Positions 36,985 through 52,316 of a DNA stretch of 64,000 nucleotides are shown here, piece by piece. Location: assembly GCF_000264995.1 (NCBI RefSeq), contig NW_006767439.1, forward strand, positions 1,550,903 through 1,614,902, given 5' to 3'. This stretch comes from Punctularia strigosozonata HHB-11173 SS5. Taxonomy: Eukaryota; Basidiomycota; Agaricomycetes; Corticiales; Punctulariaceae. Numbering within the stretch: position 1 is the stretch's first letter; every line of letters begins with the position of its first letter. The notes beneath the pieces were generated by a model. The model saw only the letters and a program-made list of their open reading frames with translations. It made no database searches and was not told the origin of the DNA. The position numbers were made by a program, and so were the translations under genes.

Positions 36985-38797
36985 ATGTTCCGCGCCGCAG
37001 CCCTCGTCTCCTTTGTCTTCCTCGCGACCGTGTCTGCCCAACAAGCCGGCACGTCCACCGCGGAGACCCACCCTGCGCTCTCGTACCAAACTTGCACCGC
37101 TTCCGGTGGATGCTCCACCGTGGCAGGCAGCGTCACTCTTGACTCCAACTGGCGCTGGGTTCACAACGTCGGCGGCTACACCAACTGCTACACCGGTAAG
37201 GACAAACGATTTACGTTGACATTGACGTTTATGCTCATCCTTGAGTTTAGGTAACGAGTGGGACGCAACCCTCTGTCCCGACCCAGAGACGTGCGCGACA
37301 AACTGCGCTCTCGACGGCGCCGACTACTCCGGCACCTACGGCATCACGTCCTCCGGCTCCGCGCTCACCCTCGCGTTCAAGACCGGCTCCAACGTCGGCT
37401 CGCGCGTCTACCTCATGAAGGACGAGTCTACCTACGAAACGTTCAACCTGCTCAACAAGGAGTTCACCATGGACGTCGATGTTTCCAAGCTCCCCTGCGG
37501 TCTCAACGGCGCCGTCTACTTCTCTGCCATGTCCCCCGACGGTGACACCTCGTCGACCAACACCGCCGGCGCCAAGTACGGTACCGGCTACTGTGACTCG
37601 CAGTGCCCGCGCGACCTTAAGTTCATTGAGGGCAAGGTATGCTGGTCTCCCCTCATGTATCGTGCCCCAGTTTCTGATAAACCCCCCTTTTTTCTTCAGG
37701 CCAACCTCATTGGCTGGAACGGCACCTCCGCTAACTCCGGCACCGGTTCCACCGGCGCGTGCTGTACCGAGATGGACATTTGGGAAGCCAACTCCATCTC
37801 CGAGGCCGTCACTCCCCATCCTTGCGAGGGCACCAGCATCACCGCCTGCACCGGCGACGAGTGCACCTCGACTTGTGACCAGGCCGGGTGCGACTTCAAC
37901 TCCTTCCGTATGGGCAACACGTCCTTCTACGGCCCGGACATGATCGTCGACACCACCAAGCCTATAACCGTCGTCACCCAGTTCCTCACCAACGACAACA
38001 CCACGACCGGCACCCTCTCCGAGATCCGCCGCATCTACGTCCAGAACGGCAAGGTCATCCAGAACTCGCAGTCGACCATTCCCGGCGTCACCGGTAACTC
38101 GATCACCGACTCGTGGTGCGCGGCGCAGAAGACCGCCTTCGGCGACACCAACACCTTCCAGCAGCTCGGTGGGCTCGAGCAGCTCGGCAATGCGTTCGCG
38201 AAGGGCATGGTCCTCGTCCTCTCGATCTGGGACGACTACGCCGTCAACATGCTCTGGCTCGACTCTGACTACCCGACCACCAAGGACGCGTCCTCTCCCG
38301 GTGTTGCCCGCGGTACCTGCTCGACCTCCTCCGGTGTGCCCGCCCAGGTCGAGGCCAACGGCGCCAGCATCTCGGTCACCTACTCGAACATCAAGGTAGG
38401 CGACATCGGCTCGACGTTCTCCGCAACCGGCTGTAAGTCGTTTGCCGCATCGACTTTACAATTCCCCTCTGACCACGCTCACTCGCAGCTTCCACCGGTT
38501 CGTCAGGATCCGGCTCCACCGGCACCACCACCGCCCCGGCCGGCTCTTCCCCGACCGGCGGCAGCGGCAGCGGTGGTTCCGTCGCGAAGTACGGCCAATG
38601 CGGAGGCACAGGTACGCTATAGATCATTGCCTTCGAGGGCGCTTCCTAACATTTTTCGTCTGAAGGCTTCACTGGACCGACCTCGTGCGCGTCTGGCTCG
38701 ACCTGTACCGTGTTGAACCCCTGTGAGTCGCCTCTCCATGCCATTTCCGGGTCTATTCTGACGAGTCTGTCCCACAGACTACTCGCAGTGCCTCTAA
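36985..38797 (+). CDS. GH7 cellobiohydrolase (Cel7A type) with C-terminal CBM1, 509 aa
   Basis: The model is join(36985..37195,37251..37636,37700..38432,38489..38611,38666..38722,38778..38797). It has a signal peptide [18 protein letters not shown] and a mature start QQAGTSTAE. The GH7 domain contains the catalytic block [12 protein letters not shown] (nucleophile Glu, Asp, acid/base Glu as E-x-D-x-x-E), SWRW-type glucose-binding Trp (SNWRWVH) and [11 protein letters not shown]. Many cysteine pairs are present. A Gly/Ser/Thr linker ([15 protein letters not shown]) leads to a CBM1: [20 protein letters not shown]...NPYYSQCL. It would release cellobiose processively from the reducing ends of cellulose, outside the cell. 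The tunnel-forming loops appear full length, favouring cellobiohydrolase over endoglucanase. The gene looks intact. The last exon is only 20 nt. Confidence 0.95.
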
Positions 38798-39551
38798 AAG
38801 TCTCGAGATCGGGTCGCTAGAGTGATTTGGATGGCTCCTCTCCTTATGATGTATACTATTGGGTCTTGAATGACACAGTGCTTATGGCTATCCTTCCGCA
38901 CTATGCTCCGTGCAGCGCAAGATGAAGTCTACCATCGCGAGTTACTCATGCTCGCCTTTGAAACGCGTGATGTCACCGCGCTTTGTGCCGCCGTTGACCG
39001 CAACGACATCGACCCTACGGTTGCTTCAGGTGGGTACCCTCTCTCCGTTGACTTGATTCTTGAGCTTGCCCATGCCGACCGGACTCGGTATCCCGCAACG
39101 CCATGACCCCTAAGTTCACCATCTGCTGATACTACACGGCCCTGATCGAACATGGCCTTATTCGATATCGATACTCATATTGTCGCCTGCAGTGTTTTGG
39201 CGAATAGATGGAACTGTCCAGAGGCCGCCGTTCATTCGTGAATGTCTCAACGCTCGATCTCGAGCATGTATAGTGAGTTCGAACGCAGCGTCAGACCCTT
39301 GTGCTAGTACACACGCTAAGTTCCCGAGTTCTTCACGGCAAGCGCAAACGCAGTTGACCTAAGATAAGGTGGACATGCATTCGAACAATATATATATTAG
39401 AATCACAAGCAACCCAATGAGGGCCTGAAAGCAGGACAAACAAAAAGCACAGGAACATCTTCGGGGGCCATACTTCATAGTACATGCAACGTTTGGTTGA
39501 ATCACAGAAACGAAAAATAAACGCAAGCTAATACTATATCTCACAACCTTT
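38798..39551. other. Intergenic between GH7 and TUP1; contains a conserved exon-like fragment
   Basis: Around 38930-39030 an open frame reads LAFETRDVTALCAAVDRNDI, followed by a GTGGGT donor-like site. A related fragment occurs on the minus strand at about 53349-53465. The rest is the 3' flanks of GH7 and TUP1. Confidence 0.45.
38930..39105 (+). pseudogene. Fragment of an unrecognised gene family (VDRNDID motif), copy A
   Basis: The frame contains AAVDRNDIDPTVASG and then, further on, a TATCCCGCAACGCCATGACC block. Both have counterparts in the same order on the minus strand at about 53290-53465. No complete gene could be built here, so I read it as a decayed or partial copy. The parent family is unknown to me. 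Confidence 0.35.
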
Positions 39552-42500
39552 TCAGCTGATCGTCTTGTAGCTCCCTAGTGACATCGACCGCGTTAGCCAG
39601 GGTAGGAACCCTCAGTTGGTCATGCTACTCACATATACGGGCCTGCCAGTCACCGCTGCCGCTCGCTATCATGCCGCCCTGCGGGTTGAGGTCGATTGAT
39701 ATCACTGCAGGCACGGTAGCATTGATAAGCTCCCGTATGTATAGGATTCCGAAGGTGTAACCGTACCAGAGTTTTTATGCCCTTGCAACATAAGCTGCAC
39801 CGTCGCCGTCCTCGCGTCCCAAAACTGGACACCGCGATCCTTCGACCCGGACACGACCCACTCCCCGTCCGCAGACACCGCGACAGACAGCACGTAGTCC
39901 TTATGTCCCAAAAAGTTCATCGTGCACTGGCTGCCCTTCTCCCCTCCCTCCTTCACGTCCTTCAGCGCCTTCTGCACCGCCGGGCCGCCCCTCGGCACGT
40001 TGCGGATGTCCCAGTACTTGAGAGTCTTGTCCAAACTGCCCGAGACGAGCCCCTTCCCGTCCGGCGTGAAGGCGACGGAGTAAACCGAATCTTTATGGCC
40101 GCGGAGGCGCTCGACGAGCTGGCCCGTGTTCACGTCCCAGATGCGGACGATGGTGTCTAGCGAGCCCGCGGCGACGAGGCGGCCGTCCGGGGACATGGCA
40201 ACGGAGGTGACGCCGGCGTCGATCGAGTCCGGTTCGTTGATAGCGAGTAACTTGGTGAGCGAGCCGCCTGTGCCTGTGCAAGAAGGATGCTGTGAGCACA
40301 CCCGCGTCACGGATTTAGGTAACACCCGCGAACTCACTCGGGGTTCCGTTGGAGTCGACCTCCATATCCCATATCCGAGCCGTCTTGTCTCCGGAGCCCG
40401 ACACGATCAGCCGCCCGTTGCGCGAAAATTCGAGCGAATAGATCTCTTGCTCGTGCCCATCAAAGATGTTCCGGATGCGCTTCTTGGCGATGTCCCAAAT
40501 CTATGGCACCATTAGCACTACTCCTACAAGGCGAGACAAGAGCACCTACCCGAATCTGCTTGTCTTCGGCACCAGTCGCTAGGTATTTGCCATCCGGGCT
40601 GAAGCACACACTCCGGATATACAAGTCGCCCTGCTTGCTAGCATTCTCGTCCACCAGAACACTAGACGCCCTCTCATCAGTCCCAGTCACCTCAAGTGGG
40701 AAAAAAGTCCAGCTAACCAAGTCTTGGCACCGGTCTTGACGTCGTAGATCTGCGCCGATCGGTTACACCCCGTCGCGAGGTACTTGCCGTCATGCGAGAA
40801 TCGCACGCAGCACACCACACTGCGATAGACAGGCACCGTCAGCATCTCCATCGCATTACATCGCGCAAACAGCGAGTGGGAAAAAAAAAAGTACCTCTCG
40901 TGATAGAGCGTATGTACCAAGTTGACGTCCAACACGCGCTTCACCTTAGGGTTCCACACCGCGAACCAGTCGCTGCCCTCCTGCAAACCGAACAGTGCCA
41001 TATTAGCAACCAAGAAGCGATTCGGCCATCAGGGGTCATACCTTCTTCAGCTCGGGAGGGATCGATCCCGGGCTCAGCGTCATAGGGTCTACCTCGTCAG
41101 CCGGCGCTGCGCCCGGTCCACCAGGAGGGGGAGGGGGAACACCAGAGCCAGGGTACCCAGGTCCACTCGGCACACCTATCCCAAGGCCATATTCATTAGA
41201 TCCCTGTGCCAGAAAACCCTCACGGAACATCAAGAGGACGACGTACCGGCCGAAGCACCAGCTGGAGCAGCCGAAGGCCCCGCAGATGCGGGCACCCCCG
41301 CCGTCGACAACGCAGGCGAATACCCTTCTAAAGGATGAAAAAAAAAATCGTCATCAGCACCCCGCTCCACGATTGCCCAGCCTCAGACAGACCTTTCGCC
41401 CTCACGTCCCTCTCCGTCTTCGCCCTCTTCAACTCGCGGTCGTCCCGCTCGCGCTCCCTCTCCCGCTGCTCCCGGTCACGCTCGCGCTCCCTATCGCGCT
41501 GCTCCCTCTCGCGTTCTCTCTCCCTCTCGCGCTCCCTTCCCCTCTCGCGCTCGTCCCTTCCCGGCTGTGGCGGCAGCTGCGGCTGCGACTGCTGAAACCG
41601 CGCCGGGTCGCCGCTCACGAGCCGCATGTCCCGCTCCGCGCGCTCGCGGTCCGAGAGCGTCAACCGCGCGTCGCGGTCCCTGATAAAGCAACCAAAAAAA
41701 ACAAAATCACACACTGATCGTCAGCATCCGGTTATGGCCGAAACGCAAGAGCGAAAAAGGGGGATGTCAACGAGCAAGCAAGAATAAAAAGACCGGGGAA
41801 AAAAATAAACGCGAGGGAATGTCGAACGAGAGGAAATATGACAAGGAAGCGGCCACCTACCGGTCCATCCGCGCGTCCCGTTCGCGCATTTCGCGATCCC
41901 GTTCACGTTCCCTGTCGCGATCCCGCTCACGGTCCATCCTTCCGTCGCGCATGGTGACGTCCCTGTCCCTCTCTCTCTCCGCCAGCCTGATCTCGCGGTC
42001 GCGGTCGCCTAACGAAAAAGAGTGTATAATCAGGACACAAAGCTCCCCCCTATGCCCTCTCTCTCTCCAACTAGACGAGGAGAGCGAAGGACAAATAACT
42101 CACGGGGCATATAATTCTCGGGCCCAGGGACAGGAGGGAGACCAGGGTAGCCTCCCGGTCCAGGTCCGCCTAACCCGACGGGACCGGGTCCTCCTGGACC
42201 GGTACCTGGCGTACCCAACGGCCCTCCAGGTGGCGCCGACAGCCCAATGGGGGGTAGTCCGCCGGGGCCGGGCGTGGGGGCGCCCGGACCGGAGATGGAC
42301 GGTGGCCCACCGGGGAGGCCGGGAACGGATGTGGGTGGACGCGAGGGGTCGAACTGACGAAAAGAAGGGGCGACGCGTTAGAGAAGAGGAAACGGTGGAA
42401 GAAACGTGATCGACGTACGCGATCGCGGCCGTCGCGGTCGCGCGAGAAGTCGGCGAGGCCGAGGCGGGCGTCGATGCGGCCGTCCATGCCGCGCCCGTCG

Positions 42501-43220
42501 AGTCCGCGCCCGTTGATCTCGGCCGAGCGGGCATCGAGCGAAGAGAGCCTGAAGTGCGTCGCATCTGAGTGAGATGCGCGGCGATGACTGCCGAGACGAC
42601 GTACCCTGGGCGCCCGTTGACGTCGCCGCGGTCTAGGCCGAGGCCGATGCCGCGCTCGCGCGGGTCAAGCTGGCCGTTCCGGAGGGCATCGACCTGGGCC
42701 CGCAGGCGCCCGAGCTCGTCTTCGTACTGCTGGCGGATCTTGCCGTGTTGGGCCTCGAGGTCGTACAGCGATTGGCGGATGATGTTCAGTTCGTTGACCT
42801 GGGATGTCACTGGAAAGGTACCGGACACGTGTCAGGATAGGTGCTTCTTTGAAAAGCCAATGGAAGTAGAAGGAATGAAGGGAGAGGCAAAGGGATAGAT
42901 AGCATGTGCGCCACATGTCCGAATCGGGCAACGCTTGTCCCGTTATGGTATAGGGGAAAGAAGAGGCGAAGGAGCCACACCTTTGGAGTCGTACTCGTCC
43001 CGCTGGCCACGGAGGAGTTCCGCCTCGCGCGATAGCCCGTCGAACTCGTTCCGGATGGCTTCAAAGTGGGCGTCCAAGCGCGAGCCGGGCGCGCTCGGTG
43101 GACCCGTCGGTTGCAGCGACCGATGCTGATCGCCCATTGTACGAAGTTAGCGCCCCCCGAGTTTCGGTTCGAGCCGGGTCGGTGGAAAGAGGGTCTCACG
43201 TTGTAGATGGAGGACGACAT
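39552..43220 (-). CDS. TUP1: Tup1 general transcriptional co-repressor, 821 aa
   Basis: The model is complement(join(39552..39574,39633..39704,39767..40273,40338..40500,40550..40661,40718..40819,40895..40980,41042..41175,41247..41327,41393..41679,41861..42008,42104..42353,42419..42548,42605..42809,42981..43125,43200..43220)). The N-terminal Tup_N coiled coil ([40 protein letters not shown]) forms the tetramer that binds Ssn6/Cyc8. A Gly/Pro-rich linker and an unusual Arg/Glu/Asp-rich mixed-charge block (residues about 251-395) follow. The propeller (about 468-821) has seven WD repeats, including [61 protein letters not shown] and a final ARIW|SYKTIS. It is recruited by DNA-binding repressors to silence glucose-repressed and developmental genes. 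Exon phases of the propeller are shared with the fusion gene at 48.2-52.3 kb. Confidence 0.95.
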
Positions 43221-45328: not shown

Positions 45329-47822
45329 ATGAAGGGCACGCATATACTCGCCTCCGCCGCTCTTCTAGCTCGTGGAGCGACCGCCCTGAACAACAGAGGC
45401 GTCGCTAAAACACCCGGTGAGTTACCTTCGCCGCCCTTCCTCTGAGCGCTCCGCCGACTCACTCACTGCGCAGTGATGGGCTACAACGGTACTGCAGATC
45501 CATTCATTACCCTGTCTTCGTCAGAGCCTTGACGCACGATCTTCCCCGATTAGCATGGAACGCGTTCCAATGCAACATCAACGAGGACCTCTTCCTCACC
45601 ACAGCCAACCTGATGGTCTCCCTCGGACTCAAGGTACAGCTCCTTTTTAAACGATCGCTTCCTCCTCGTGCTCCATGTAATGGCGCTGGCGTGTAGGACG
45701 CCGGCTACCACTATATCAACCTCGACGACTGCTACGCGCTCAAGAACCGCACGTCGAGCGGGGCCATCGTCGAGGGTATATGTCACGGATCATTGCGCTT
45801 CCGACTCGACTACTGAATGGGTTCGCAGATCCGGCCAAGTTCCCGAGCGGGATGCGCAGCCTGACGGACAAAATACACGCAATGGGATTGTGGGCGATTT
45901 CCGTGTTACTTGTTGTGGCTATCGCATTGATGAGCAAAAACCGACAGCAAAGCGGGAATCGTGCGTACATTCAAATTCACGACGTTGCTGGCTCGGCTCA
46001 CCGCTGTTGCTCTTTCCGTAGTACGGCGACTCGGGATGGTATACCTGCGCCGGCTACCCCGGTTCGTTCCAACACGAAGCTCAAGACGCGCACACCTTCT
46101 TCGACGAGTGGAACTTTGATTTGCTCAAGTGAGTCAAACTTCCCCCGCTATTCATTCTCGTCAGATGACTGATAGCTGGACCTCAGGTTTGACAATTGCG
46201 CCAGCAAGTTCTCGTATTCCGTTTGTACGATGGAAGGGGCTGACGTTGATGGTACCAGTTCCGTACGACGATATCATCCGGCAAGGTATCATAGGAAGTA
46301 GGTCTCATCTCGATGGAACAGAAAGATAGAATCGGCGCTGACCGCCGTTCTGACCAGAGTACCAGCGCATGGCTGACGCGATCGCGAAGGTCGCAAGACC
46401 GATCGTGTTTTCCCTCTGCGAATGGGGTTGGGTCCGTTTCCTTACACCACGCCGTCGCATGATTTCGGCTCACCCGTCTTCCCGCTCACAGAGCCAGGTC
46501 TGGCTGTACGTCGACTAGGATTTCGTCGCTGAACCTGAACACTCATGCATTGTGATAGATGGGGAGCCAAGCTGGGACAGAGTTGGAGGGTGTGTAGCTT
46601 CGGTTCCTCGACCCCGGGAGTACGCTAAGCTGCTACAACAGACCACGGGTGATATCGGCCCCGACTGGCCCAGTCTCGCCAACATCATCAACTTGTGAAA
46701 TGCCTATCACCTTACTTTCGTCAGCCCGTCGTCTGATACGATGTAATAGCAACGCCTTTATCACCCAAGCTACGAACTTCTACGGACGGAACGATATGGA
46801 CATGGTGCGTCCCAACCTCTCGCGAGCGTAGACCTTCGTTTCATGCAGAATCCATAGTTGCAACTGTAAGCGTCCGGCCAGCAGGAAACTCGCATGAAGA
46901 ACTCATTTTTGCTCGCCAGCGGAAACGGCGGGCTCACGTACGACGAAGCGAAGTCGCACTTCACCGCGTGGGCGCTAATGAAGTGGGTTTTCGTCGGCCT
47001 CACCCTCGTAGTTCCATGTCTAACATTCTGTAGATCGCCCTTGCTCATCGGAACAAACGTACGAACCACTTCGCTTTTTTTTCCCCTGCGACCTTCTTTA
47101 TTGATGTTGTACTCAGCTATCCGCAATCACGAACGACGTCCTTGGCATACTGAAGAACAAGGAAATCATCGCCATCAACCAGGATCCGGTGGTGGGAGAG
47201 AGTATATCCCCGTTCAGGTCCGTTCACCTCTTGACTCTCTCACTGATTTTCTCAGCATCTGATCGGACTTGTACATCACAGATGGGGCTCCCTTGTGCGT
47301 TCCTTCTCGGGAGCACCATGTTCGCTTGGGTTTTGATGATACATGTCAGGGCGACTATTTTTCTAGCATCAGCAGCGACTACCCTCCTCAGTATTGGAGC
47401 GGCGACTCTCAGAACGGGACCGTGTTCATGCTCGTATGCACCTCGATAATAAACCCGTCCACCTATGCTGACGTGTCGACATATAAAGCTTAACACCTTG
47501 AACGAGACTGCCGACATGTCCTTCAACCTCACCGAATCGCCCTGGATTCGCGCCGGTCGGAAGTACTCCGTTCGTGTATGTACAACCACCACCGCTTTCC
47601 ACCAGGTTTCGACGTCTCATGGTTATATTACCGCTGCAGGATCTATGGACACACACCGAAAATGGAACGGCTGTGCGTAACTTCACGGCAAAGGCGGTCC
47701 CGCCGCATGGCGTCGTCGCGCTCCTACTCAAAGACGCCGGAGACGAGCCCGACGGCCTCTACCCGGCATGCTCGGTGTGGTATCAATGCATCGATAAGAA
47801 TGGGACGCATGTCGGGGGGTGA
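45329..47822 (+). CDS. GH27 alpha-galactosidase, secreted, 429 aa, 22 exons
   Basis: The model is join(45329..45416,45474..45488,45554..45633,45697..45775,45829..45889,45948..45960,46022..46128,46187..46203,46259..46297,46358..46431,46492..46505,46559..46589,46642..46694,46750..46804,46858..46865,46920..46982,47034..47058,47117..47217,47282..47294,47350..47433,47489..47575,47640..47822); total divisible by three. The signal peptide is MKGTHILASAALLARGATA. GH27 motifs are GYN-AWNAFQCNINE, GYHYINLDDCYA, KAGIYGDSGWYTCAGYPGSF, the nucleophile Asp in KFDNCA, SLCEWGW, GDIGPDWPSL and the acid/base Asp in FYGRNDMDM. ALMKSPLLIGTN and AINQDPVVGESISPFRWG follow, with a C-terminal beta domain. It would remove alpha-1,6-galactose from galactomannans. 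One intron (46204-46258) uses GCAAGT as donor, and one exon is 8 nt. Confidence 0.93.
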
Positions 47823-48235: not shown

Positions 48236-51200
48236 ATGCCACATCTCGTGCCCGAGGGCTCCGGGAGCTCGAGAAAGCGAGTCGCATCTGCCGACCTTGA
48301 TGACGCAGATCGTCGAGTTCGATCTTCGGGGCTAGGTGAAAAGCTTCACGTCAAAAGCGAGCAAGCATCGATCGAGCTATCCGTAGCCTTCGACGCAGAC
48401 TCTGGTGAGTGGCCGGAGCTTAGCCACCCGCGGATGTTTGGCTGAAAGATTGCACACCAGGTATAGAACGATGGCCAACCAGCACCCAGGAAGATCAGGG
48501 AGAAGACAAGCTTACTAAGTCGGAGGTAGATGTAGTTTGGATCGACGAGGACGTCGAGCACAGCACTCTGCGTAGGTTTAGTATACTAGGCTCGGTGCCC
48601 TGAAGGTATCGAATGTCATGTAGGTTTGCAAGACCTCCAAGCGGAAACTATACAGACCTTGGAGCTGTGCTCTGCAGCAACACTCGTGTGTCCAGTGCGT
48701 TTCTGCATTTCTGCTGTCGTGATGAATCTTGGAATAGGGTCGATACTGATGGCTCTTGTCTTTCAGAATCTTCTGGCTACACTCAAGGACGAAATCGCCG
48801 CATCAAACAACATGGTCACGGACGTCAAATTGACCGCGTACGTACCGCACAAGCACCGTTCATGCACATGTTCACGTGTTTCCATATAGCCAATTGTCTC
48901 AAATAAAAGAGTTTCTCAGGCAAAGTCGCTCGAAAGAGCTTCTCTTCAGCCTCGTCAATTACCATCGTTTCCGTGACTGGCTGGGATCGGTATTGTCAAC
49001 CGCTTCTCAACAATCGCATCCGTCCTCATCGTTGTTTCAGATCTCTACACAACTCGGCTTCATGGAGAATGTGGCGGTGACCGAATCCATGCATCGTGAT
49101 GGACTGAAGGTGGTGCATGAAACGCAACGCATCATTATGGATCCTGCTTGGCACGACAGTATTTACGGACTTCGCGGAGAAGGGGCAAACAGTTTTCTTA
49201 ATCTGCTACAGGAGGTATGACTCCATACTTCGTCGCAGACCTCCGTTGCTCAGTCTGTAGCTCCTAGATCGATCAGGACCCTTCCGTCGGTGGGACCAAT
49301 CGGAGATGAAAAGTACCCACCCCAATTACGATGAGGCGGAGATGATGAAATGCGCACGACAAATGATCCTAAAGCTATCCGTCGTAAGCGACACCATACC
49401 GTCCTCCCTCTTTCTCAAACGGGTCTTTTGCTCTATGGAACGAGCAATTGGCAGGGGGGCGTATGCCGATGTCTACTGCGGATCTTACGAGGAACAACCT
49501 ATTGCATTGAAACAACTCAGGATCTTTGGAGATTCCGAGCCATCGCAACCCCATAAAGTACAGATTCCGTCGACCCCAGTAGCAGCTGCCCAAATACTGA
49601 CCACTCAACAACAAAGGATCTGTATCGAGAAGCCCTACTATGGCGTCAGCTCAGACACCCTTGCATACTCCCATTTCTGGGACTGTATGAGGACACGCAT
49701 GCAAAGGATCTGTGCATGGTCTCCCCTTGCATGTCAGGTGGCAGCCTTCTAGACTTTGTGAAGAAGTTCGTGGTTGAAGTAGATGTTGTCAACCTTGTGG
49801 GCTTTTTTTCTGCTTGCCCTCATGGAATGCGATATTTACCGGCTATTTTCAGCTCATAGACGCGATCGGGGGTCTTTGTTACCTCCACGATCAATCTTTT
49901 GTTCACGGAGATTTGCGAGCGGTACGTAGGCAGTTGACGAGAAGGCAATCAACGAGCGGGCACCTTCATTGATTCATAATCACCTTTGCAGGCCAATGTT
50001 CTCATCGATGAGCATGGTCGTGCATACCTTGCAGACTTCGGTCTCATCTCCTTCATCGAGAATTCCAGCATCACCACCCAATGTCGCGGCAACGCGCTGT
50101 GGAAGGCACCCGAACTTCTTCAGGGGGAGTTGCAACGTACCCCTGCCACTGATATTTATTCTTTGGCATGTCTATGTTTGGAGGTGGGCGTGCAAGTTCA
50201 GATACGACACGTGTCACTAATTATCAAAATACTCAGCTCATCACGCTTGAGAATCCCTTTGGGGGCATACCTGAGACTGTCGCCGTCATTAAGGTGTATC
50301 AGGGCATCCGCCCCGAGCGCCCTCAAAACATTAAAGTACCTCTGCGGATTGGAGAAGACGATCTATGGAACCTGATAGAGGCATGCTGGCATCAGGATCC
50401 TCACCAGCGACCGATGGCCAAGGATGTCCTGGAAAATCTACCTCCGTATCTTCCCTCGAAGCTTCATTCACGGATACCGTCTCCCGTTCCGACCCGCGAT
50501 CCCGCCTTGGGAAGAAGACATAAGTGTCAAGTGTGTGGGAAGTCCTACCAAAGGCGATCCTCATTACGAGATCACATGAACATACATGATGGCCTCAAAC
50601 GTGCGTAGCTTGATGCTCACACCTCGTTGCCCTCTCACAGGTGTTAAAGCATATCAATGTTCCTTCCCCGGTTGTATGCAAGCCTTTTCCTCGAAGCCCG
50701 CCTTAAATAGGTATCACCCTATTCCGGATATGTTTGACTAATCGTCCTCTAACGTAGCTTGGCTGCCAGGCACTTTCACCGGCATCCGGTTCCGGGCAAG
50801 AGTCATCGCAAGGTGGGTTTGAAGCTTGTGATCCCCCAAGCTAGCCAATGCTTGATAGAGGCCATACGGGCTGTCAGTATGTGACTCTTATGTACTGATG
50901 ATACCGCGCAGGAGGGCCCCGGATGGTTCGCGGATTGGAACCCAGAAGTGAAGTGCACGTTGGATGTGGACTTGATGCATACATTTATCCACTCGGAGTC
51001 CGTTTTGCGCCTTTTAACGAGGTGATGTAATATAGATGTTGACAGTGTTTTTTTTTTTTGTCGCAGGGCTGTGTTCTGCGTGCGCTTTTCGCATGATGGC
51101 AAGTACTTTGCTACCGGGCATAGCACATCGGTACGTATCTACGACGTGGGGACAGGTGCCGAAACTTGGTGAGTCATAATTTCTTCCCTGTGGAGGTCAT

Positions 51201-52316
51201 GAACAGGTGCTGATGAGAAAGCGCATAGTGTTTTGGAACATGACACAAAACATGACACAACCCCTCCCAGTGCGTGCTTCAGCCCGGATGACAAGTACCT
51301 CGTGACATGTGGATATCACGAGAACATCTTCGTATGCTACTTCTATGGGCGCTTGACGAGAGGATGTTCAACAGTGTTGCAGCTCTGGAACATTGCCGAG
51401 AAGAGCGTACGCAGTGTCTGCAGAAACTCTAAAGGGCCATTTTTTTTGCTTGCGTTCTCCCCCAACGGGAAATTCCTCGTGTCCGGCTCAAGGAGTGGGA
51501 TAGTCCAAATATGGGACGTGGAGGTTAAATCCGACGGATCGCTGAGTGAGTTCGCTGGTTTTGTCTATAGGTAATGTAGCGAGTGTTCATATCCCTTTTT
51601 CGCAGGCTTTGGCGACTGGCCCTCTGAGCTGTATGCAATAGAAGGATTAGGCCCGTACCGTGTCTACTTGGACTGCATCGCCATATCTCCGGACAGCCAA
51701 CTCGTCGCCACCGGCTGCTCGGACGCCATCCGCATCTGGGACATTAACACGGGACAGCTCGTTAAGCGCCTTCGATACCCCTCTAATCGGTACTGCCCCG
51801 TCGCATTCACCCCGGATGGGAAGGGGCTCGTCTCCGGTAGCTCGGACAGAACACTTAAGTACTGGGACATCCGCAACGTGCCGAGGGGCGGACCGGAGAT
51901 GAGGGAGGCTCTGATAGATGACAACGAAGGTGAAGAAGAGGGAACCCGGTGCAATATGACCTTTCTGGGGCACACAGATGTGGTGACTTCGGTAGCAGTG
52001 TCGCCGGACGGAGAGTGGATCTTGTCTGGATATTTCAATGATACGGTAAAGCTTTGGGATGCGAGAACAGCGACACTGCAGCTCACGTTGAGGGGACACA
52101 ATAGCGGCGGTAGGTTACAATATATAGTATCTTGGGAAGATAGCTGATGTTTGCATTTGTGTGCAGTGAACTCTGTGGACTTCCACCCACAGAGCGGCAT
52201 ATTCGCGAGCAGCGACTACAGCGGGAACGTCCGTATATGTGAGTGCTTGATGTCTAGAACACTCGTGCTCGCTGACAAGGTCGGTGATGGTAGGGAACTA
52301 CAAGACCATCCACTGA
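48236..52316 (+). CDS. Fusion protein: TKL-like kinase + two C2H2 zinc fingers + Tup1 WD40 propeller, 995 aa
   Basis: The model is join(48236..48404,48461..48571,48624..48694,48767..48837,48890..48989,49041..49214,49261..49557,49617..49796,49853..49921,49992..50183,50237..50600,50641..50710,50770..50812,50912..51021,51067..51168,51229..51331,51383..51545,51606..52109,52167..52238,52294..52316), 996 codons including stop. A helical N-terminus leads to a kinase domain (about 285-550): GRGAYADVYCG, IALKQL, YREALLWRQLRHP, HGDLRAANVL (Asp kept, HRD as HGD), ADFGLIS, KAPELL. Finger 1 is CQVCGKSYQRRSSLRDHMNIH; finger 2 is CSFPGCMQ...ALNRHFHRH; both have perfect C2H2 spacing. From residue 638 (EGPGWFADWNPEVKCTLDVD) it matches Tup1 through [13 protein letters not shown] to VRIWNYKTIH at the stop. 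The Tup1 N-terminal tetramer/linker is absent. No stop or frameshift was needed. Splicing across the kinase-finger-propeller junctions is inferred, not shown by RNA. Confidence 0.82.

Follow-up and report, generated by a model that had tools for sequence, protein, structure and literature searches.

How did a kinase, C2H2 zinc fingers and the WD40 propeller of the co-repressor Tup1 come to lie in one open frame of Punctularia strigosozonata, is that frame read as one protein, and what would such a protein do? The frame was found in a stretch of 64,000 nucleotides (hereinafter referred to as the window), which is part of contig C7 of a genome of 33.6 Mb in 32 contigs. Our preferred reading, to which we assign a probability of about 0.58, is that of a lineage-specific gene arisen by exon shuffling, which would yield one spliced protein, a kinase with a propeller re-specified for binding or sensing, and not a Tup1 co-repressor. 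The features on which this reading is based are listed in Table 1.

Table 1. Features of the chimeric gene and of the neighboring Tup1 gene (positions in the window).
Feature	Position	Strand	Remark
Intact Tup1 gene, 16 exons, 821 aa, Tup_N and propeller	39552..43220	-	Donor of the chimera propeller
Chimeric gene	48236..52316	+	19 exons, 1001 aa: N-terminal region, TKL-like kinase, two C2H2 fingers, Tup1-derived propeller
N-terminal region, exons 1-5 and start of exon 6	48236..49434	+	Without Pfam match
Kinase domain, residues 308-563, exons 6-10	49435..50440	+	Pfam, catalytic motifs
C2H2 finger 1	50525..50587	+	Encoded by exon 10, in which the kinase domain also ends
Phase-1 linker intron (intron 10) between the fingers, at K|P	50601..50649	+	Position common to six other C2H2 loci of the genome (two with identical modules)
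C2H2 finger 2, interrupted by a phase-2 intron (50711-50769)	50658..50785	+	Intron common to L017
Junction intron 12, 99 nt, phase 0	50813..50911	+	Acceptor is the counterpart of the Tup1 intron 9 acceptor
Propeller, exons 13-19	50912..52313	+	blastn similarity to Tup1 from about 50908
First in-frame ATG from which a separate propeller could start	50975..50977	+	Preceded by 21 conserved codons (50912-50974)

The gene begins with ATG at 48236 and ends with TGA at 52314-52316. All 18 introns had GT-AG borders and no internal stop codon was present, in agreement with the intact single frame described in the first-pass annotation, although the 20 exons and 996 codons given there were replaced by 19 exons and 1001 aa. 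Three splice choices were ambiguous, every one in frame: the acceptor of intron 10 (50640 or 50649), the acceptor of intron 11 (50769 or 12 nt earlier), and the donor of intron 13 (50998 or 51022, the latter adding 24 nt). Acceptors 50649 and 50769 were favored because the introns that they close are common to other C2H2 loci; 50640 was dropped for 50649 since the same intron is present in other finger genes of the genome. A branch-like CTNAY motif was absent from both forms of intron 13. For intron 4, acceptor 48909 led to stops from exon 5 onward, and 48889 was adopted. Exons 1-4 were placed by the open frame and splice sites only. No Rfam family or tRNA gene was detected in the window.

A Pfam search of the first 308 residues returned no family, while Tup_N was recovered from the Tup1 of the window as a control (1.5e-28). 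The kinase domain was matched by PF00069 (8.5e-41) and PF07714 (1.9e-39), and the propeller by seven WD40 stretches (4.8e-47); these scores were obtained with a first model of 1012 aa, the final model having 1001 aa. The kinase motifs reported earlier (Gly loop, Lys, HGDL, DFG, and APE) were all present, as GRGAYADV at 313, IALK, HGDLRAAN, DFG, and APE. The first of them carries Ala where the consensus loop has its third Gly, and HGD lacks the Arg of the consensus HRD. The kinase is referred to as TKL-like, a label set by resemblance; a TKL expansion has been described in Laccaria (PMC2838846). Exon 10 encodes both finger 1 and the final part of the kinase domain, so that these two are joined whatever the splicing.

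Of the two fingers, PF00096 (1.3e-8) covered finger 1 only, and finger 2 was recognized by a second PF13894 stretch and by C2H2 spacing. Zinc ligands were kept, and the linker was TGEKP-like. Seven other C2H2 loci of the genome were scanned, with a further finger match (L021) left out. In six of the seven, representing five distinct modules (L020 and L062 have one identical two-finger module sequence), a phase-1 linker intron (K|P) was located at the exact position of intron 10 of the chimera; at L064, no two-finger module was found in the scan. One of the seven loci (L017) also has the phase-2 intron that precedes the first His of finger 2. By these common intron positions, the derivation of the finger exons from the C2H2 gene family of the genome is well supported. 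The finger 2 helix reads SKPALNR in the chimera, vs. VNSNMRR in four of the six resolved finger genes; the remaining two have VRSNAKR or VRSNARR. The family-type helix V(N/R)SN(M/A)(R/K)R was not found in the chimera, and the parental DNA specificity of the fingers was probably lost.

The intact Tup1 gene lies 5 kb away, upstream of the chimera, and was the sole match over the cut-off in a Tup_N profile search of the genome. A weak second match (C13:981331-981498, + strand, 7.6e-4) fell below the cut-off, with no entry for C13 among the propeller matches. Chimera exons 13-19 matched Tup1 exons 10-16 in order and with identical phases (0, 2, 2, 0, 1, 1, 1), their sizes being 86 (or 110)/102/103/163/504/72/23 in the chimera and 86/102/112/163/507/72/23 in Tup1. 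The sizes 102, 163, 72, and 23 are the same in both genes, 103/112 and 504/507 are offset by multiples of three, and the first exon measures 86 in both with donor 50998, the ancestral donor. The blastn similarity (66% over 1261 positions) sets in at the Tup1 intron 9 acceptor, and the junction of the chimera falls on this phase-0 intron of Tup1. Neither the nearby Tup1 gene nor this location of the junction is mentioned in the first-pass annotation. A Tup1-type seven-bladed propeller was present, with its scaffold kept (54% identity to the Tup1 of the window).

In a tree of 21 propellers (the alignment excluded P0244, whose start motif was unmatched, and one of two propellers in P0021, namely the first), the chimera and the Tup1 of the window were grouped with an ultrafast bootstrap of 97, their branch lengths being 1.05 and 0.001 substitutions per site, respectively. 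Further, [11 protein letters not shown] was found in these two only, being absent from the other 19 of the 21 aligned propellers. This grouping and the common stretch imply that the copy of the Tup1 propeller probably arose within the lineage and then changed fast. As to other genes nearby, an alpha-galactosidase-like gene was noticed by eye between Tup1 and the chimera (45330-47822, + strand), on motifs that we take to be of that type, and a gene end at 38500-38800 (+ strand) carried a tail (YGQCGG...YSQCL) that is presumably fungal cellulose-binding-like.

In neutral simulations with substitutions only and the same divergence, every one of 2000 sequences acquired one or more stops (mean 9.7). 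Because seven propeller exons match the adjacent Tup1 in order and phase, and all of these simulations gained stops, chance is excluded, and the fused frame at 48236-52316 is real. For the fingers and propeller, a three-source, phase-matched assembly is well supported by the exon comparison. In this assembly, a TKL-like kinase gene carries finger exons that stem from a C2H2 gene family, and copied Tup1 exons 10-16 are attached by way of a phase-0 intron, with the frame left open and the propeller core kept. The product would be spliced and translated as one protein, in which the propeller would serve the kinase as a re-specified binding or sensing module and the fingers may tether the chimera to DNA or protein. 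The finger and propeller donor families are still readable in the same genome, the Tup1 donor only 5 kb away, so the steps by which a new multidomain gene is made become directly testable: joining matched by intron phase, then loss of parental contact residues while the folds stay.

The loss of contact residues was most evident on the top face of the propeller. Three contact positions per blade (R1-2, R1, and D-1) have been defined, and seven contact positions are needed by Tup11 to bind Fep1, according to PMC3419727; these seven were located in the chimera alignment by residue type and order. The chimera matched the Tup1 of the window at none of the 21 top-face contact positions, vs. 183 of 319 other positions (p 4e-8), and the seven essential for Tup11-Fep1 (PMC3419727) were among the 21 changed. 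In nine canonical Tup1 propellers, 19 of the 21 contact columns were invariant; the chimera kept 0/19 of them, vs. 104/165 of the other invariant columns. By register, R1-2, R1, and D-1 were each kept in 0/7, and core positions in 6/7 or 7/7. Loop positions beside the contacts were also poorly kept (1/6 to 2/7), and the tetrad Asp after D-1 was retained in two of the six blades where Tup1 has Asp; the upper face of the chimera propeller may be weakened.

The nonsynonymous difference was 0.76 at the top-face hotspots (34.7/45.7 sites) vs. 0.25 elsewhere. Its excess over the overall synonymous difference (0.56; p 0.014) is weak, being suggestive but not proof of positive selection on the top face, and the change may in part be relaxation, not new specificity. 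Other Tup1 duplicates showed a milder loss, with 14/19 (P0001_2), 8/19 (P0004_1), and 9/19 (P0004_2) invariant contact columns kept, which exceeded the loss at other invariant columns (p 0.014, 0.002, and 0.003, respectively); erosion after duplication is thus not unique to the chimera. A tentative reading, which we consider rather unlikely, is that of a recognition kinase made by exon shuffling, in which diversifying selection has reshaped the top face of the captured, ready-made Tup1 scaffold to fit a new ligand. If true, a surveillance or self/non-self sensor would have been built from a co-repressor part, in a genome that has many kinase-WD40 loci with hypervariable top faces, and with parallel kinase-Tup1 fusions in Marasmius.

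It is also conceivable, if unlikely, that the chimera is functionless, drifting or silent with its frame not yet broken. The very long branch, a GC3 below that of Tup1 (0.68 vs. 0.81), the eroded top-face loops and tetrad Asp, and an architecture without recurrence among the matches listed would fit such a state. However, none of the 2000 neutral simulations was free of stops at the same divergence, the WD Trp residues were identical to those of Tup1 in 6/6 cases, and outside the hotspots the nonsynonymous difference was about half of the synonymous one (pN/pS 0.46). Over the propeller, dN was 0.35 and dS 1.11 between the chimera and Tup1 (NG86), a dS near saturation that makes the ratio rough. 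Judging from these comparisons, the propeller has been subject to selection as coding sequence.

Two separate genes, one for the kinase and fingers ending near 50884 and one for the propeller starting at 50975, would account for several features of the junction: read-through of intron 12 gives 23 residues followed by a stop at 50882-50884, an in-frame ATG is available at 50975, and intron 12, at 99 nt, exceeds all of the other 17 introns in length (46-72 nt). This arrangement is nevertheless improbable. Just 90 nt would separate the stop from the ATG, and intron 12 has all its signals in place, namely donor GTGGGT, a branch-like CTGAT 16 nt from the intron end, and the Tup1 acceptor. Moreover, the 21 codons that precede the ATG show conservation at the protein level, with 14/21 residues kept vs. 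Tup1 and nonsynonymous differences at 10.0/50.6 sites, vs. synonymous differences at 134.3/239.2 over the propeller (p 2e-6, Fisher on rounded counts). Being conserved upstream of any in-frame start, these codons argue for translation from the upstream exon and favor one gene, and from this pattern the chimera is likely expressed as a single gene. The 5' part of intron 12 (50813-50884), with its 23 open codons, may be a former coding tail of a kinase-finger gene, or yield a shorter isoform if retained.

In Tup1, DNA-bound partners are docked by the propeller, and the N-terminus provides the contacts for the tetramer and for Ssn6. A protein in which fingers are combined with the propeller but Tup_N is missing therefore has no obvious module for repression. 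In a six-frame genome search, no Tup_N match was detected at the chimera, which together with the lack of a Pfam family in its first 308 residues bears out the loss of the N-terminal tetramer part noted in the first-pass annotation. Its proposal of a self-targeting repressor brought to DNA by the fingers, or a dominant-negative competitor for Tup1 partners, would be favored by the retained zinc ligands and TGEKP-like linker and by a Tup1-derived propeller with seven WD40 stretches, but is very improbable given the top-face match of 0/21, the missing Tup_N and Pfam-free N-terminus, and a finger 2 helix that differs from all six resolved finger genes.

In searches over 5.8 billion proteins, 244 proteins were among the matches listed (best 120 of 4183 matches; 119; 5); for the sets of 120 and 119, scoring was limited to the 8000 candidates sharing most words. 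None of the 244 listed combined kinase, fingers, and propeller in one protein, which is consistent with the earlier statement that no such architecture was known. The search with the finger-propeller junction, suggested at the same time, gave no full match, the matches listed covering at most 49% of the query. No publication on a kinase-finger-propeller architecture was found in the open-licence literature. The C2H2 regex matched five of the 244 listed proteins, four of them animal and the fifth P0242, an unnamed protein with C2H2 profiles.

The closest likeness was found in three hypothetical Marasmius proteins (P0004, P0007, and P0008), which join a TKL-like kinase, 35-37% identical to that of the chimera, to Tup1-like propellers in one predicted protein. 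Unlike the chimera, they carry two propellers each, and the C2H2 regex gave no motif in them. Their six propellers kept 9/21, 9/21, 11/20, 20/21, 17/18, and 17/21 top-face residues. By eye, a Tup1 segment that precedes the propeller (PPEFKK or a close variant) is also retained in them, so the breakpoint differs, and an independent origin of these fusions is probable. This suggests that kinase and Tup1 propeller were fused more than once in mushroom-forming fungi. In P0004, the linker between the propellers resembles the kinase tail by eye, as if the unit had been duplicated.

Compared with the Tup1/Tup11/Cag1 co-repressors, the chimera has a propeller of the same Tup1 exons, with seven WD40 stretches and grouped with the Tup1 of the window, but lacks Tup_N and keeps 0/21 top-face positions. 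The two Tup1 paralogues of Coprinopsis both carry Tup_N (PMC5200907), whereas the copy in the chimera is without Tup_N and fused. In fission yeast, WD40 divergence is reported (PMC2882346) to matter for the difference between Tup11 and Tup12, and the binding of TupA to protein kinase A is a subject of PMC4559445.

Within the same genome, four contigs chosen by eye (C3, C8, C22, and C23) were surveyed for a kinase match on the same strand and at most 3 kb upstream of a WD40 cluster. Such a match preceded at least 14 of the 28 clusters on these contigs (at least seven on C23 and at least five on C8; L007 and L047 are examples), the counts being lower bounds from the matches listed. As in the chimera, these loci have a kinase followed by WD40 repeats, with variability greatest at R1-2, R1, and D-1: among 23 distinct repeats from six places, the highest entropies were found at the three contact positions (3.4, 3.0, and 3.5 bits), entropies that are comparable among free positions only, as the repeat regex fixes several positions. 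Their repeats are highly alike, whereas the blades of the chimera differ from one another. The C2H2 regex gave no motif in the seven locus sequences (six places) checked, and a search with the chimera kinase found 0/14 of the loci among the matches listed, with 78 of 279 candidates scored. By this comparison, the kinase-WD40 loci would be analogues of the chimera, not kin.

Fungal NLRs with WD40 repeats offer a further parallel, in that variable repeat domains, shaped by positive selection, are there combined with exchangeable effector domains, kinase domains included (PMC4986451). The chimera differs from them in that it shows no nucleotide-binding domain and that its propeller lacks the makeup of a conserved-repeat array. 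As an analogy and not a demonstration, the design of the chimera resembles a format used often in this genome.
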